Shown: positions 9,295 through 17,047 of the stretch, piece after piece
How positions within the stretch are numbered: the first letter of the stretch is position 1
Layout of the letters: each line of letters begins with the position of its first letter
Source of the DNA: Candidatus Neomarinimicrobiota bacterium
GTDB taxonomy: Bacteria; Fidelibacterota; SORT01
Length of the DNA stretch: 38,256 nucleotides
Direction: 5' to 3'
Assembly (NCBI GenBank): GCA_022573815.1
Contig: JACZTG010000023.1
Location: forward strand, 1 to 38,256
Program-made: the position numbers and the translations under genes
Notes under the pieces: model-generated
What the model saw: the letters and a program-made list of their open reading frames with translations, nothing else
Database searches by the model: none
What the model was told of the DNA's origin: nothing

Positions 9295-10665
9295 ATGGCT
9301 ATAACGACAAAGACTAAAACGATATATATCTGCGCCAATTGCGGAGCTACCTCTCCCAAATGGAGCGGTAAGTGCTCCGAATGCGGTGAATGGAATACTT
9401 TCTCTGAAGAAATAGTCTCAAAATCGACAAAGAAAAAACTAACCCATCGTTCAGATTTGAAGAAAACGATTTCTCTCGGAGAGATTAACTCTGAGGGAAC
9501 ACCGAAAATTTCTACTACCATCGGAGAGCTCGATAGAGTTCTTGGCGGAGGTTTGGTAGCTGGCAGCATTGTATTGTTGGCAGGCGATCCTGGAATTGGA
9601 AAATCAACATTAATGCTGCAAATGGCTGCCGCGGTATCAGGTAATCTCAAGGGCGAGACTATTTTTTGCGCTGGAGAGGAATCCGGAAGTCAAATAAAAA
9701 TGCGGGCAGACCGTCTCGGGCTTGATGTATCAGGTGTCAATCTGCTTCTTGAAAGCAATATGGATATCGTCACAGAACTGCTTTACGCTAAGCAAGACGG
9801 ACTTATTATTGTCGATTCGATTCAAACGGCATTCACCGAAAATCTCGAGAGCTTCGCCGGAAGCGTATCTCAGGTAAGAGAAACGGCGGGAATGCTTCTG
9901 AAACTGGCAAAGAACAGCGGCAATATCGTTTTTATAGTCGGGCATATCACCAAAGAGGGTTCGATAGCGGGACCGAAGATGCTTGAGCACACGGTTGATA
10001 CGGTTCTCTATATGGAAGGTGAGAAGCTAAACTCATATCGTATTCTCCGGTCGATAAAAAATCGATACGGTTCCACAAACGAAATCGGCGTTTTTGAAAT
10101 GCGGGAGAAAGGACTTATTGAGGTAGAAAATCCGTCCGGCTTTTTCCTTTCCGGCAGAGAAGAACTCGTACCGGGTTCTGTTGTTGTGGCGAGCATGGAA
10201 GGAACACGACCGTTTCTGTTGGAAATTCAGGCATTGGTCAGCAGGGCTTCATACGGCACACCTCAGCGTAATTCTACAGGGATAGATAACCGGCGGTTGG
10301 CGATGATAATCGCTGTATTGGAAAAAAGAGCAGGAGTGCGGTTGGGAATGAGCGACGTGTTCGTCAATGCGGCAGGAGGGATGAAGATAACCGAAACATC
10401 CATAGATTTGGGGACAGCGGTGGCGATGGCATCAAGTTTTAAGGACAGCCCGGTGGATGACGGTATTGTCATTATTGGTGAAATCGGATTGGGAGGTGAA
10501 GTTCGCCCCGTATCGTATATTGATAGAAGACTCAAAGAGGCTTTCAATCTCGGATTCAAGCACGCCGTTATTCCGAAATCCAATGATAAGAACTTAAAGA
10601 CTCCTACAGGGATGCGGATAACAAAAGTTGCCTCGCTCTCGGAAACTCTGTCGGTCTTACTGTGA
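9295..10665 (+). CDS. radA: DNA repair protein RadA (Sms)
   Basis: The RecA-like ATPase that drives branch migration of recombination intermediates. All RadA landmarks are present: a four-cysteine zinc finger (Cys13, Cys16, Cys27, Cys30), Walker A GDPGIGKST at 97-105 with Lys103, the RadA-specific KNRYG motif at 255-259, and a C-terminal Lon-protease-like domain (VFVNAAGGMKITETSIDL, IGEIGLGGEVRPV). The length of 456 residues is standard. No strong ribosome site precedes the ATG. The stop codon overlaps the GTG of tgt, so radA opens a co-directional cluster that runs to about 18 kb. Confidence 0.97.
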   Translation: MAITTKTKTIYICANCGATSPKWSGKCSECGEWNTFSEEIVSKSTKKKLTHRSDLKKTISLGEINSEGTPKISTTIGELDRVLGGGLVAGSIVLLAGDPGIGKSTLMLQMAAAVSGNLKGETIFCAGEESGSQIKMRADRLGLDVSGVNLLLESNMDIVTELLYAKQDGLIIVDSIQTAFTENLESFAGSVSQVRETAGMLLKLAKNSGNIVFIVGHITKEGSIAGPKMLEHTVDTVLYMEGEKLNSYRILRSIKNRYGSTNEIGVFEMREKGLIEVENPSGFFLSGREELVPGSVVVASMEGTRPFLLEIQALVSRASYGTPQRNSTGIDNRRLAMIIAVLEKRAGVRLGMSDVFVNAAGGMKITETSIDLGTAVAMASSFKDSPVDDGIVIIGEIGLGGEVRPVSYIDRRLKEAFNLGFKHAVIPKSNDKNLKTPTGMRITKVASLSETLSVLL

Positions 10666-11825
10666 GGTCTAAATTTTTTACGCTTGAGAATGTTGACGGG
10701 GTCGGAGCGCGCGCGGGATTATTAGATACCGAACACGGCGTAATAGAAACTCCTGTCTTTATGCCGGTTGGAACTTACGGCGCGGTAAAATCGCTTTCTT
10801 CAGATGATTTAAAAGAAACGCGCACGCAAATAATTCTCGGAAACGCATATCATCTTTACCTCAGACCCGGCATAGAAACAATTAAAAAAGCGGGCGGACT
10901 CCACGAGTTTATGAATTGGGATGGTCCTATTCTTACCGATAGCGGAGGTTTTCAGGTGTTTTCTCTGCCGAAATTGACGAAAATAGATGACGAGGGTGTG
11001 ACATTTCAGGATCATATTGACGGGTCCACACACCGGTTTACCCCTTCAAAGGTAATTGACGTGGAGAGGAATATCGGTGCGGACATCATTATGAATTTTG
11101 ATGAGTGCGCTCCCTATCCAAGTACGCTTGAATACGCCTCCGAAGCGGAGATAAGAACAGCCAATTGGGCTGCGCGGTGCAAAGAACAATTTGACGCTAC
11201 CGAACCGCTTTACGGCTATAAACAGTTTCTTTTTGGGATCGTTCAAGGAAGTACATATAAAGAACTGCGAGAAAAAAGTACAGAGGCTATTACGGCGCTC
11301 GATTTTGACGGCTATGCGATAGGGGGATTGGCAGTTGGTGAGTCGCCGGAAAAGATGTATGATATTTGTGGCTTCAACGCTTCTCTATTGCCCGAGAATA
11401 AACCTCGTTATCTAATGGGAGTGGGAAAGCCGGAAGACCTGATTGAGTGTGTGGCACTCGGTATTGATATGTTCGATTGCGTTGTTCCCACTCGAAACGG
11501 ACGTAAAGGCACTGTTTATACCAATGAGGGGAAACTAAATTTGAACAATGCGGTCCATAAAACAGATTCATCGCCAATTGAAAATGGATGCTCTTGCGAA
11601 TCGTGTCAAAAATATTCCCGCTCTTATCTGAGGCACCTGTTTAAAATGGGTGAGACTTTAGCGGGTCGAGCTGCAACAATCCATAATCTTCATTATTATA
11701 TGAATCTTATGACCGGTATGAGAAACGCGATTATGGAGAATAAGTTCGGCGACTTCCGAAAAGAGTTTTATCAGCTGCGTAAAAGCAGTTCGAATCTGAC
11801 GGTGAGGGAGGAAATGGTTGAGTAA
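10662..11825 (+). CDS. tgt: Queuine/preQ1 tRNA-guanine transglycosylase
   Basis: Exchanges guanine-34 for preQ1 in GUN-anticodon tRNAs, the key step of queuosine biosynthesis. Asp93 in LTDSGGFQVF is the general base position and Asp272 in FDCVVPTRNGR is the covalent nucleophile. The zinc site is Cys310, Cys312, Cys315 and His341, with the family's 26-residue spacing between the last cysteine and the histidine. Length (387) is typical of bacterial enzymes. The GTG start overlaps the radA stop (GTGA). The 3' end overlaps the next gene by 8 nt. No other queuosine gene is visible here. Confidence 0.97.
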   Translation: MRSKFFTLENVDGVGARAGLLDTEHGVIETPVFMPVGTYGAVKSLSSDDLKETRTQIILGNAYHLYLRPGIETIKKAGGLHEFMNWDGPILTDSGGFQVFSLPKLTKIDDEGVTFQDHIDGSTHRFTPSKVIDVERNIGADIIMNFDECAPYPSTLEYASEAEIRTANWAARCKEQFDATEPLYGYKQFLFGIVQGSTYKELREKSTEAITALDFDGYAIGGLAVGESPEKMYDICGFNASLLPENKPRYLMGVGKPEDLIECVALGIDMFDCVVPTRNGRKGTVYTNEGKLNLNNAVHKTDSSPIENGCSCESCQKYSRSYLRHLFKMGETLAGRAATIHNLHYYMNLMTGMRNAIMENKFGDFRKEFYQLRKSSSNLTVREEMVE

Positions 11826-12702
11826 TCATAACCTTACCGCTGAATTAAAGAATAAAATCAGCAAAATTAAGCTAATCGCTCTTGACCTTGACGGCACCAC
11901 GCTGACTGACGATAAGAAGATTACCCCTGAAGTAACTGCGGCCATTAAAAAGGCGAAAGATAAAGGCTATGAAATTACGTTTTTAACAGGAAGGATGTTT
12001 GCAGCGGCAGCTCCGTATTTGAAATCTATGAATCTATCTGTTCCAATCGTGTGTATGAACGGTACTCTAATTGCGGAATCTCATACAGGAAAAGTTCTAT
12101 ATGAAAAAACCTTGGAAATAGGCTGTGTAAAACAGGCGCTAAAGGCTGTTGACGGCGCTCCGGTCTATCAGTTCATTTATAATGGGGATAAGATACATCA
12201 CAGCGTAAAAGACCCCGAGATACTTAAATACCTTGAATGGTGGGCGGTCAATTTCAATGAAGTTGCGGAAATCAACATAGATGATTATGAAAAAATATAT
12301 CAGCTTTTATTCATAGGCGAACTTGAGATATTAAATGAAATATCCAAAAATATCGACAGCGATTCCGAATGTAATCTGACTACATTCAGCTTTCCATCGC
12401 CGCGCTACCCGCTGCATTTTTTAGAAGTCAAGACACAGGGAGATTCAAAAGGGAAAGGATTGAAATTCCTTCGCAATTATTTCGGGGTGAACAAGGATGA
12501 GGTTCTGGCAGTAGGTGATTACCTAAATGATTTCGAGCTCCTAAAGGAAGCTGGAGTGGCGGTTGCTGTGGCAAATGCTGTGGATGATCTGAAAAATAAT
12601 GCTGATATTGTAACGAACAGGACCAACAATGAAGGAGCAGTGGAGGAAGTTATAGATTTGATTTTAGAATACGCCCACAACAGCCCGACAGAGAGAGAAT
12701 AA
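11818..12702 (+). CDS. Cof-type HAD-IIB phosphatase
   Basis: A 294-residue cytoplasmic hydrolase of the haloacid dehalogenase superfamily, probably acting on small phosphorylated metabolites such as sugar or nucleotide phosphates. Motif I is DLDGTT with nucleophile Asp23 and acid/base Asp25. The motif III lysine lies in GDSKGKGLKFL, and motif IV is VGDYLNDFELL. The large cap inserted after residue 85 marks the C2B (Cof) class. The TTG start lies inside the end of tgt, which implies translational coupling. The specific substrate cannot be read from the sequence. Confidence 0.9.
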   Translation: MSNHNLTAELKNKISKIKLIALDLDGTTLTDDKKITPEVTAAIKKAKDKGYEITFLTGRMFAAAAPYLKSMNLSVPIVCMNGTLIAESHTGKVLYEKTLEIGCVKQALKAVDGAPVYQFIYNGDKIHHSVKDPEILKYLEWWAVNFNEVAEINIDDYEKIYQLLFIGELEILNEISKNIDSDSECNLTTFSFPSPRYPLHFLEVKTQGDSKGKGLKFLRNYFGVNKDEVLAVGDYLNDFELLKEAGVAVAVANAVDDLKNNADIVTNRTNNEGAVEEVIDLILEYAHNSPTERE

Positions 12703-12710
12703 TACAGTAT

Positions 12711-13865
12711 ATGGACAATTCAGACGATATAATAAAAATCTCGCCTCTTCCGGACCCCAAAAAAGCGAAAAAATACGCCCACTTGAAATTGGCGGGGTCA
12801 CTGCTTAATACGATTCTATATCTGATGTTTACATTGGCAATTCTCTATACCGGATTCAGCAAAAATCTCGCTCAATATATTTCTACAATAACGGTAAACG
12901 ATTATCAAAAACTCTTACTCTTTTTTTTAGCGTTGGGATTTGCTCAGTCAATTATCGGGTTTCCGCTCAAATATTCTATCGGATTTAAAATGGAGCGTCG
13001 TTACGGATTATCAGACCAAAGTTTCAAGGGCTGGATTTGGCACGGATTCAAAGGGCTTTTAGTCTCCGTGGTCATCGGAGCTCCTCTGTTGTTGCTGTTC
13101 TATTATTTCCTGAGAAAATTCGGACAAATGTGGTGGGTTCCCACAGGTCTGATTCTCTTTGGCTTCAGTGTTCTTCTCGGAAGATTGGCGCCGACGTTGA
13201 TTTTCCCGCTTTTCTACAAATTCGTACCGCTTGATACGGGGGAGCTGGCTGACAAAATAAAATTGATGTCTGAAAGCGTGGGAATGAAGCTTAGCGGCGT
13301 GTACAGTTTCAACCTCAGCAAAACGACCAAAAAGGCTAATGCGGCTTTTGCCGGATTCGGTAAAGCCAAGAGAGTACTGTTAGGCGATACGTTGTTGGAG
13401 CTTATGACCGATAACGAAATATTAACAGTGATGGCTCATGAGCTTGGCCATTATCGGCTAAAGCACGTACCGAAACTTATTGCGGCAGGGATGATTACGA
13501 CTTTCTTCGGGTTGTATATCGCCGCAGAGCTATATTCATATACGCTGAGTTATTTCAGTTTCGGTAACATTGTAGAGATAGGGGCGCTTCCGTTGCTCTC
13601 TCTATGGCTAATGGCATATTCGTTTCTGACAAATCCCTTAACGAATATTCTTTCTCGCGAGTTCGAGCGGCAAGCGGATAAATATGCTCTGGATATATCG
13701 AAGGACCCGGAATCGTTCAAATCAGCGCTTATGAGGCTTGCAAGTTTAAATTTGGCGGATATAGAACCGCATCCGATTATCGAATTTATATTTTACAGTC
13801 ATCCCGCTATAACTAAACGGTTGTCAGCCATAGACTCTTATGAAAATAAAGGAGTAAATCTGTAA
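12711..13865 (+). CDS. M48 family membrane zinc metallopeptidase (Ste24-like)
   Basis: A 384-residue integral membrane protease. HELGH at 243-247 and ERQAD at 319-323 (Glu319 third ligand) form the gluzincin zinc site. Several hydrophobic helices flank it, with an N-terminal multi-helix region and the long PTLIFPLFYKFVPL segment typical of CAAX-protease-1/Ste24-type M48 members rather than HtpX. Bacterial members probably clear misfolded membrane proteins, since most bacteria lack prenylated substrates. Its stop overlaps the next ATG (TAATG), and AAAGGAG near its 3' end is the ribosome site of the selenoprotein candidate. Confidence 0.92.
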   Translation: MDNSDDIIKISPLPDPKKAKKYAHLKLAGSLLNTILYLMFTLAILYTGFSKNLAQYISTITVNDYQKLLLFFLALGFAQSIIGFPLKYSIGFKMERRYGLSDQSFKGWIWHGFKGLLVSVVIGAPLLLLFYYFLRKFGQMWWVPTGLILFGFSVLLGRLAPTLIFPLFYKFVPLDTGELADKIKLMSESVGMKLSGVYSFNLSKTTKKANAAFAGFGKAKRVLLGDTLLELMTDNEILTVMAHELGHYRLKHVPKLIAAGMITTFFGLYIAAELYSYTLSYFSFGNIVEIGALPLLSLWLMAYSFLTNPLTNILSREFERQADKYALDISKDPESFKSALMRLASLNLADIEPHPIIEFIFYSHPAITKRLSAIDSYENKGVNL

Positions 13866-14410
13866 TGTCCTGGATAGAGATGATTTCTTATGATGATTCC
13901 GAAGGCGATTTAAGGGAAAGGTTTGAACCTCTTCAATACGCCGAGGGTAAAATAGCCCATATAATGCAGATTCATAGTCTATTGCCTTCCACAATGACTT
14001 CACACTCCGGATTTTATCGTGATATAATGTTTGGTCGCTCGGATTTATCCCGCAAAGAGCGCGAGCTTGCGGCAACCGTGGTCTCTATCGTCAACGAATG
14101 TCATTACTGAACGGCACACCACGGAGAGGTTCTCCGTAAGCTGTCCCGAATGGACAATATAGTTGATGAACTCAAGAAAAATGAGCTGCCTGATTTTCTA
14201 TCTGACAGGGAAAAATCCATTGTGAAATATGTGCTAAAGATAACAAAAACACCCTCTGAAATGAGAAAGGACGATGTGGAAGAGCTGAAAAACGCGGGAT
14301 TATCAGAAGCGGCTGTTTTGAATCTCGTTCTTGTAGCGGGTTATTTCGCTTTCGTGAACAGGCTTGCTGACGGATTGGGTATTGATTTAGAGGATTACCG
14401 GAAGCGTTAA
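13865..14410 (+). CDS. AhpD-like peroxidase-family protein, candidate selenoprotein (in-frame TGA, Sec82)
   Basis: One 181-residue gene interrupted by a TGA at 14108-14110. The upstream part ends ...VVSIVNECHY, and the sequence after the TGA continues TAHHGEVLRKLSRMDN, both in the same frame. Together they match the carboxymuconolactone decarboxylase/AhpD 'peroxidase-related' family along the full length, including a C-terminal AGYFAFVNRLADGLG. With the TGA at position 82, Glu67, Cys79, residue 82 and His86 take the spacing of AhpD Glu118, Cys130, Cys133 and His137, so the TGA replaces the CxxC cysteine nearest the histidine. A bacterial SECIS-like hairpin starts 10 nt downstream. The AhpD role is hydroperoxide reduction through this redox pair. 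AAAGGAG at 13848-13854 supports the ATG start. The ATG at 14150 lacks a ribosome site, arguing against a second gene. Nonsense mutation is the alternative. Confidence 0.85.
14113..14146 (+). promoter_or_regulatory. Putative bacterial SECIS element
   Basis: Directly after the in-frame TGA, ACGGAGA (14121-14127) and TCTCCGT (14131-14137) form a perfect 7-bp stem capped by GGT. A lower helix pairs GG and ACA (14113-14118, bulged C) with TGTCC (14142-14146). The tip G at 14128 is 18 nt past the TGA. A G (or GGU) at the loop of a short stem at this distance is the recognised pattern for SelB binding; the fdhF element of E. coli has a similar AGGUCU loop. Confidence 0.75.
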
Positions 14411-14497
14411 CCGAAAATAGATTTCGCTCTGTCAATCGACAGAAAACCTTCACAAATACCGCTTTTAATTAGTATCAAATTTGAGTAAATTCATAGT

Positions 14498-16267
14498 TTG
14501 GATAAGGTTTTGACAGATAACTCAATTGCTGCGGGCATAAATAGTTATGGACTTTCTAAAAGGCAAAATTTTAAAAAAAGTTTTGCTACATCAGGAATCA
14601 TTTTCTTTATTATTTTCTTGTCGGGCTGTGCATCAAAAGGTCCTATTTTAGGCGGGCCTGTTGATGACATACCGCCTCTGATACTTAATACGGTTCCCGA
14701 GAATTTATCTCTTTCGGTTAGGAGTGATATTAAAGTAAAATTCGAATTCAATGAAAGAATGAATCGTTCAAGTGTGGAAAAAGCGATTTTTATTTCTCCT
14801 GTTCCCGAATCCAAACCTGAGTACAAATGGAACGGTTACAAGAAACTCACTCTGATTTTTACCGATGAGTTAACCGGAGACAGAACGTACGTGATAAGTA
14901 TCGGCAGCGGCGCAGCCGATGAGCATAAGAACAAAATGGGGGAAAGTTTTAATCTCGCTTTTTCTACGGGAAACCGCATTGATAATGGAACTATAGCGGG
15001 AGAGGTTTTCGGTTATGGAAGCAAAAGCAAGGTTTTGCTGTTCGCGTATCTTATGGAAGATTCGCTGGATATAGAACCGGCGGAGACAAATCCTGATTAT
15101 ATAACCCAACCGAACAAAAAGGGTGAGTATCGGTTTAAGCATCTTGCTTACGGCAGATATAGAGTTTTCGCGGTGGAAGACCTTGACGAAAATAGTAAAT
15201 ATTTCATAGGAAAAGACAAGATAGCAATCACCACAAAAGATGATGCAGTTTTAAATGAAGCAGACACCTCTTCCACCTTTTCTTTTTACGGATTCAGCTT
15301 AATTGACACGCTCAATCCGGTTATTGTATCTCTGCTGGCGGTTGATAACGGTCACCTGAGCGTTCGTTCGCTCGATCCGCTCGTGCTACCCGAAGATATT
15401 GATTCGATTTGGGCGCTGAATAAGACCGGGGAAGAAAAGATAATTCCATCGGTTATTTATCCCGATGCGGAGGAAGCGAATATTTTCCACCTGCACTTTG
15501 AAGAATTGAAAGATGATACGGAATATGATCTGTTTTTCGGCGGATTCGAGGACAGTTCGGGTAATAAAATGGATTCGATTTCAAGGAAGAGAACCTTTAC
15601 CTCATCAGCAGAGCGGGATACTACGCCACCCCAACTTCTCTCGGTGACTCCCCAAAGAGGAAATAAATTGGTATATTCAGGAGATCATATTAGAATTAAT
15701 TTCAATGAAGGCATAAATAAAGAAAGTATGTTATCGGCATTAAAAATATTCTTATCTGATACCGTTTCTGTTAATTATGATTTGGTCTCCAAATATTCCA
15801 ATAAGTGGGAAGCGTTCTCCGCCGATGGATGGAAGTCAGGAGGAAGTTATACTATCGAAATAAATCTTGGAGAAATCAGCGATTTACGTGGTAATTCAAT
15901 GTCCGATAGTTTGTGGACGAGTAATTTTCAAGTCGTAGAAAATGATACTTTCGGTATCATCAGCGGTTCGGTACTTGATGATTTAGAAAATAATATAGCC
16001 GTTCATTTAATTGCCGTACCCTTTGATAAAAAGGCGAGAAAAATAAATATGAAGGTAAATTCGGACGGGAATTTTCAGTTCGATAAAGTTTTACCCGGCA
16101 AATATTTTTTGAGCGCTTACGGCGACAGAGATGAAAACGGGGCTTACACATTAGGCTCACCCGTACCTTATACCCTTTCAGAGCGGTACTTTCAGGGAAG
16201 TGACACCGTTTATGTCCGTTCGAGATGGGAAACGGCAGATCATAAAATTGTATTCACTGAGGAATGA
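14498..16267 (+). CDS. Ig-like (Big_5) domain lipoprotein
   Basis: A 589-residue exported lipoprotein of a family common in FCB bacteria. The lipobox LSGC follows a hydrophobic helix (IIFFIIFLSGC), and the mature N-terminus has the GPILGGPVDDIPP motif typical of these proteins. Two Big_5/SbsA-type Ig domains are visible (about 62-155 and 375-485), each with an FNE(R/G)(M/I)N-like calcium-strand motif and a ...FST / ...SNF closing strand. Between and after them are carboxypeptidase-regulatory-like beta folds (RFKHLAYGRYRVFAVEDLDEN and FQFDKVLPGKYFLSAYGDRDENG). The TTG start is uncertain: it gives a long pre-signal tail and has no clear ribosome site; a TTG at 14510 is also possible. Function unknown. 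Confidence 0.8.
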   Translation: MDKVLTDNSIAAGINSYGLSKRQNFKKSFATSGIIFFIIFLSGCASKGPILGGPVDDIPPLILNTVPENLSLSVRSDIKVKFEFNERMNRSSVEKAIFISPVPESKPEYKWNGYKKLTLIFTDELTGDRTYVISIGSGAADEHKNKMGESFNLAFSTGNRIDNGTIAGEVFGYGSKSKVLLFAYLMEDSLDIEPAETNPDYITQPNKKGEYRFKHLAYGRYRVFAVEDLDENSKYFIGKDKIAITTKDDAVLNEADTSSTFSFYGFSLIDTLNPVIVSLLAVDNGHLSVRSLDPLVLPEDIDSIWALNKTGEEKIIPSVIYPDAEEANIFHLHFEELKDDTEYDLFFGGFEDSSGNKMDSISRKRTFTSSAERDTTPPQLLSVTPQRGNKLVYSGDHIRINFNEGINKESMLSALKIFLSDTVSVNYDLVSKYSNKWEAFSADGWKSGGSYTIEINLGEISDLRGNSMSDSLWTSNFQVVENDTFGIISGSVLDDLENNIAVHLIAVPFDKKARKINMKVNSDGNFQFDKVLPGKYFLSAYGDRDENGAYTLGSPVPYTLSERYFQGSDTVYVRSRWETADHKIVFTEE

Positions 16268-16270
16268 CCG

Positions 16271-17047
16271 TTGGCGAAAGAATATAAATTCTTAAAAATG
16301 CACGGGGCGGAAAACGATTTTGTAGTATTTAATGATATTGACGGTTCTGTTCCTGAGATCAGTGATAATACGGCAGCTGAAATCTGTGATAGGAAGAACG
16401 GAGTGGGAGCTGATGGAATTCTTATTTTCCTGAAAAAATCTTCCTCCGATTTTCATATGCGATATCTGAATTCGGATGGTTCTGAGGGAAGTATGTGCGG
16501 AAATGGAGCAAGGTGTCTGGTGAAATTAGCCGAAAAACTGTTTAATAAAAAGGAATTTACCTTTACCGCGCCGGACGGCGAGCATAGAGGATGGATAGAG
16601 GAAAACTCCGTTAAAGTCAGTATGCTGACCGATTCAAAGGTTAAACCCTGTTCGGTTAATGGTAGAAAAGGGTTCGTGATTGACACAGGCGCTCCTCATT
16701 TTGTCACGGATCTATTGGATGATGATTTAAAAGACCTATCAGGCGTGGGAAAAGAATTGCGCTACAGCAAGGAATTTAAATTCGGAGCAAACATTGATTT
16801 TATAAAAATTGAGAATGATAACATCTCTGTTTGCACCTATGAACGCGGCGTGGAGGCGCTTACTATGGCGTGTGGAACAGGGGCCGTGGCAGTAGCTCTC
16901 ACCCTCCGAGAAACGAGAGGGATTGAATTTCCGACCGAAATGCAATTTCCCGGCGGTCTTTTGACCGTTCATCAGAGCGATAGAGAAGGAGAAGTGATAT
17001 TGGAAGGTGCGGTAAGAATTGTATATAGTGGTAATTTATCATTATAA
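16271..17047 (+). CDS. dapF: Diaminopimelate epimerase
   Basis: Converts LL- to meso-diaminopimelate for lysine and peptidoglycan synthesis, a cofactor-independent cysteine racemase. Catalytic cysteines are Cys76 in MCGNGARC and Cys201 in ACGTGAVAV. The N-terminal KMHGAENDFVV motif is also diagnostic. The 258-residue length is at the short end of the family. The TTG start at 16271 begins 3 nt after the preceding stop; no in-frame ATG fits. The meso-DAP requirement implies a Gram-negative-type cell wall, consistent with the outer-membrane proteins nearby. Confidence 0.96.
   Translation: MAKEYKFLKMHGAENDFVVFNDIDGSVPEISDNTAAEICDRKNGVGADGILIFLKKSSSDFHMRYLNSDGSEGSMCGNGARCLVKLAEKLFNKKEFTFTAPDGEHRGWIEENSVKVSMLTDSKVKPCSVNGRKGFVIDTGAPHFVTDLLDDDLKDLSGVGKELRYSKEFKFGANIDFIKIENDNISVCTYERGVEALTMACGTGAVAVALTLRETRGIEFPTEMQFPGGLLTVHQSDREGEVILEGAVRIVYSGNLSL

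Follow-up and report, generated by a model that had tools for sequence, protein, structure and literature searches.

Why does a frame encoding a small redox protein carry a stop codon exactly where the second cysteine of its CxxC pair would be expected? The locus lies in a window of 38,256 nucleotides, the whole stretch of DNA analysed here, which is contig C23 of a 2.39-Mb draft genome (65 contigs, 96% complete) that is closest, among named genomes, to those of Candidatus Neomarinimicrobiota / Marinimicrobia. Read directly, positions 13865-14407 form a frame that is open save for a single TGA at codon 82 and that closes with a TAA at 14408-14410. The TGA splits this frame into two half-ORFs of the same phase (13865-14110 and 14150-14410) which, as the original prediction held, together make one AhpD-family protein. 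We conclude, with very little doubt, that the gene encodes a selenoprotein of the AhpD-like, peroxidase-related family in the CxxU form of TIGR01926 (Table 1). Ordinary gene callers would probably cut such a gene in two or shorten it, and its active site would be missed.

Table 1. Positions of the gene, its signals and its neighbours within the window.
Feature	Position	Strand	Basis or remark
M48 peptidase, upstream gene	12711..13865	+	Pfam PF01435, PF16491
Shine-Dalgarno AAAGGAG	13848..13854	+	10 nt before start ATG; read directly
AhpD-like, peroxidase-related gene (predicted selenoprotein)	13865..14410	+	181 aa with putative Sec at 82; TIGR01926 and PF02627
TGT, putative resolving Cys79 of the CxxU pair	14099..14101	+	invariant in homologue alignment
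In-frame TGA, putative Sec codon 82, second position of CxxC	14108..14110	+	same-column TGA/Cys in homologues
Bacterial SECIS-like hairpin	14121..14137	+	7-bp stem, GGU apical loop; fold, covariation and Sec-Cys contrast
Ig-like (Big_5) protein with lipoprotein-like start, downstream gene	14498..16267	+	Pfam PF13205

The full-length translation matches TIGR01926 over residues 2-173 in an NCBIfam profile search, at 128.6 bits against a curated cut-off of 81.8, and also matches the Pfam CMD family (PF02627, 42.8 bits; cut-off 23). A further model, NF041238 (AhpD_rel_CFYUT, an alkylhydroperoxidase-related (seleno)protein), has a related core and shares the CxYUT motif. It is, however, 357 positions long, compared with 181 residues here, and the match to it (62.3 bits, residues 2-179) falls far short of the curated cut-off of 175. 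The best solved relatives (2pfx, 3c1l, 6k40, 2oyo and 2prr) are peroxidase-related and AhpD structures. Around the TGA the motif reads C79-H-Y-U82-T-A-H85-H86, and in an alignment of 17 homologues Glu67, Cys79, the Cys/Sec82 column and His86 are all invariant. Residues 61-107 align with residues 112-159 of Mycobacterium tuberculosis AhpD (1gu9; profile E value 0.002), which fits the register originally proposed. In that register the TGA takes the place of the second cysteine in the CxxC pair, in line with Glu67, Cys79 and His86, a placement that the alignment confirms; the matching AhpD residues are Glu118, Cys130, Cys133 and His137, which we take to be the catalytic positions in AhpD numbering. 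The M. tuberculosis enzyme (1gu9/1knc) has the same spacing of its Glu-CxxC-His core, although it is a remote relative and has a cysteine where the present protein would have selenocysteine. The AhpD-type catalytic core thus stands as predicted, whereas the family is the 'peroxidase-related' TIGR01926 rather than canonical AhpD, which works with AhpC and lipoamide.

This distinction bears on function. Selenocysteine could be inserted as proposed and the protein nevertheless be some other thiol/disulfide oxidoreductase, or act on a different substrate, a reading compatible with the gene encoding a selenoprotein. TIGR01926 is only 'peroxidase-related', the match to canonical AhpD is distant, and the CMD superfamily has other activities, such as that of the debrominase Bmp8. 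The invariance of the AhpD-type Glu, CxxC/U and His residues argues against such a departure, which we consider a serious possibility, if on balance a doubtful one.

A different reading takes the TGA at face value, as a true stop that leaves either a decaying pseudogene or two separate short proteins. That is its meaning in the standard code, and ATG codons lie on both sides of it, but neither half would then hold the full active site, and a fragment begun at the internal ATG (14150) would be without both U82 and H86. A Shine-Dalgarno sequence at normal spacing was sought before this ATG and none was found, bearing out the prediction that the downstream ATG has no ribosome site. The start of the full frame, by contrast with this internal ATG, has a Shine-Dalgarno sequence (Table 1), and a GGAG at similar spacing is found before the start in close relatives too. 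Among relatives at 72-76% identity, pN/pS is 0.15-0.18 before the TGA and 0.22-0.32 after it. The latter values are well below 1, implying that the product encoded downstream is under purifying selection and agreeing with the earlier view that the flanking frame shows no decay. In these close relatives the TGA is moreover the sole in-frame stop, and the same TGA recurs at one catalytic column in 68 homologues. Constraint downstream of the TGA, together with this conservation, excludes chance or decay as the origin of the frame, and we regard a true stop as very improbable.

Comparison of the selenocysteine column across 101 homologues, comprising the loci of this phylum and 80 loci from named genomes, gives TGA in 68, TGC in 22 and TGT in 11, with no other residue encoded. 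The 68 TGA and 33 Cys homologues together span about a dozen phyla, and the column is in every case Cys or Sec, as the prediction anticipated. Among 61 genomes of the phylum, a homologue with TGA is present in all four members of the same family and in genomes of four other families; the TGA form is clear in 14 genomes of the phylum, that of the window included. These observations bear on whether the TGA might be a misread or misassembled TGC or TGT. The window does belong to a draft assembly (65 contigs), but the TGA is found at the same codon in independently assembled genomes of the same family, of other families and of other phyla, and the hairpin described below shows a systematic difference between the TGA and the Cys forms. 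An error at this codon is thus extremely improbable.

Some loci in this comparison stand apart. Three of them (L029, L041 and L042) form a divergent second Sec subgroup with the motif C-[HF]-Y-U-x-E-S-H-G-D-D-F-R, in which the apical loop, in the present register, is TGA and not GGN; two genomes (G014 and G031) have, in addition to the subgroup gene, another related Sec gene at a different location. A distant homologue, L038 (G040:C4), has an additional in-frame TAG, and another (L039/L043, G051:C20) was matched in two separate pieces; decay or an assembly fault is possible in each.

Decoding of TGA as selenocysteine calls on selA, selB, selC and selD, and all four are present in the host genome. 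The tRNA-Sec gene, with anticodon tca (UCA), was found by both Infernal and ARAGORN (64.5 bits), selB scores 358.6 bits, over its cut-off, and selD scores 358.1 bits and has its own in-frame TGA in the active-site loop (GGUACK). These three were identified by model; selA was recognised by reading the ORF adjoining selB, which lies directly downstream of it, with mutS next. Across the phylum, tRNA-Sec is found in all 14 genomes with the TGA form and SelB in 13. The exception, G052, is 86% complete in 260 contigs, and neither SelB nor SelD was detected in it. Three genomes of family f5 that have the Cys form (G008, G018 and G042) are without tRNA-Sec, SelB and SelD, unlike the present genome, whereas G060 has the Cys form despite possessing the machinery, implying that having the machinery does not compel a genome to use the Sec form. 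The circumstances that would have told against the original prediction, namely missing selB or selC, or Cys and no hairpin in sister genomes together with an erroneous TGA, are not what we find, and the sister genomes keep the TGA.

Genome-wide reassignment of TGA, for example to Trp or Gly, exists in some uncultured lineages and would also keep the frame open. In this window, however, seven of the 26 ORFs examined end in TGA, implying that TGA still serves as a stop here. Reading past the TGA would lengthen six of the seven by no more than 3-19 codons and would simply carry the other one into the neighbouring dapF frame. With a complete Sec machinery present, and with Cys but neither Trp nor Gly among the homologues at this position, reassignment has a vanishingly small probability. 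Decoding as selenocysteine, at what would be the attacking residue, is by comparison supported by the machinery, the homologues and the hairpin.

The GGU-tipped, SECIS-like hairpin predicted to begin 10 nt after the TGA is borne out by the comparative data. Its arms are ACGGAGA (14121-14127) and TCTCCGT (14131-14137), with the loop GGT at 14128-14130; ten bases lie between TGA and hairpin, giving a UGA-to-loop distance of 17 nt. The bSECIS consensus quoted in PMC13188914 specifies a loop of 3-9 nt with a G in its first two positions, an upper stem of 4-16 bp, a UGA-loop distance of 16-37 nt and an MFE of -7.5 kcal/mol or lower. The predicted element, with its 3-nt GGU loop, 7 bp and 17 nt, agrees with all the constraints quoted there. 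Its folding energy, -14.3 kcal/mol for 43 nt, is only mildly unusual in single-sequence folding (z -1.6 to -1.9), and a search of the window against Rfam gave no RNA family at gathering score.

It is the comparative data, rather than the folding energy, that make the putative hairpin convincing. In TGA homologues it occupies bases 13-29 after the T of the TGA, and its loop is short, in most cases GGG, GGC or GGT; at least one of the first two bases of the loop is a G in all 62 distinct Sec sequences. Mean pairing in these 62 is 5.92 of 7, compared with 3.42 of 7 in the 33 Cys sequences, and the local hairpin has a mean energy of -8.3 kcal/mol in the former and -3.3 kcal/mol in the latter. Compensatory changes within the Sec set include A-T to C-G or G-C, C-G to T-A and, once, G-C to C-G. 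When the 3' arms were shuffled among the Sec sequences, the observed 367 pairs were reached in none of 2000 trials, a statistic that ignores kinship. The contrast with the Cys set, which pairs no better than its own shuffles, and the register control, in which sliding the register in the Sec set lowers mean pairing to 3.42 of 7 or less, point the same way. The Cys-containing TIGR01926-like homologues (e.g. L030, L031, L036 and L073) belong to the same family by sequence, but have CxxC and, unlike the Sec gene here, lack the hairpin. Within the phylum, one group of Cys forms also sits in genomes without the Sec machinery.

A tree built from 97 homologues suggests how the two forms are related. 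Sec forms part from Cys forms on a single branch (support 96/85) and their labels require only one change, in a sample that consists of the nearest matches to a Sec-dominated query and is biased toward a single change, with unsettled bootstrap and long branches. It could be that the Sec form in TIGR01926 is a single old lineage, spread over about a dozen phyla and hardly ever reverted to Cys, but we put this forward very tentatively and think it rather unlikely. If true, Sec would be functionally locked in here, unlike the frequent Sec-Cys exchange that is usually assumed.

Given the gene structure, family, machinery, hairpin conservation and co-occurrence described above, all of which are observed, we infer that selenocysteine is inserted at residue 82. 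SelB, carrying Sec-tRNA, would recognise the GGU-tipped hairpin just 3' of the UGA at 14108, and selenocysteine would be inserted co-translationally under the direction of this adjacent element. By analogy with AhpD, the U82 selenol, activated by a Glu67-His86 relay, would attack a peroxide or disulfide substrate; Cys79 would resolve the intermediate as a selenenylsulfide, which would then be reduced by a cellular thiol donor. Both the peroxidase or disulfide chemistry and the substrate are proposed here by family analogy.

The surrounding genes and the selD genes offer some further observations. The start ATG shares one base with the stop codon of the M48 peptidase gene (TAATG), and the two genes are probably co-transcribed. 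The peptidase gene lies directly upstream in G000 and G001 and is not there in L044 and L045. Over window positions 9295-17047, compared with L044, L045 and L023, a family-wide gene order is seen: RadA-like, queuine tRNA-ribosyltransferase, HAD hydrolase, the AhpD-like selenoprotein, Ig-like protein and DapF. A possible Sec read-through of the Ig-like gene, which would add 259 codons (window 14498-17047), was rejected, the extension being the adjacent dapF in the same frame. In this genome and many relatives SelD, too, is a selenoprotein (GGUACK), although in some families, f8 and f13 for example, it is long and uninterrupted, with an open frame of about 740 aa. In the selD set of family f1 (L017:1168-2211, G000:C21, and L124-L127), four of five lack any ATG, GTG or TTG in the interval from the preceding in-frame stop to the Sec codon. 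ATT or ATC stands at one shared codon in all five, and inspection by eye shows an AGGA-like sequence 5-8 bases before it; in L017 the Sec codon is codon 16, counting from the ATC. Where the scan matched a Sec site in the selD of other families of the phylum, ATG, GTG or TTG is present. AUU or AUC thus seems to serve as the start codon of f1 selD, judging from these sequences, and this is possibly more novel than the selenoprotein itself; an AUU start is known in E. coli infC.

Finally, the gene has clear precedents. AhpD-like CxxU selenoproteins were first reported in 2005, from 27 Sargasso Sea sequences (PMC1088965), and AhpD-like 1 and 2 followed in 2008 from GOS, with 299 and 70 sequences (PMC2398784). 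The AhpD-like selenoprotein is entered under TIGR01926 in a 2026 review of prokaryotic selenoproteomes, which, under the names searched, makes no mention of Neomarinimicrobiota (PMC13188914). The present gene adds a well-supported selenoprotein to this uncultured marine phylum and gives a clear comparative signature, hairpin and machinery accompanying Sec and, in one family, being absent with Cys; knowledge of selenium biology is otherwise unchanged. We conclude that it is almost certainly a convincing further example of a known selenoprotein family rather than a new kind of system. It resembles the published AhpD-like selenoproteins (PMC13188914, PMC1088965, PMC2398784) in its TIGR01926 membership, its CxxU motif with Sec second and its downstream hairpin, and differs from them only in host lineage and in sequence, the motif here being CHYUTAHH.
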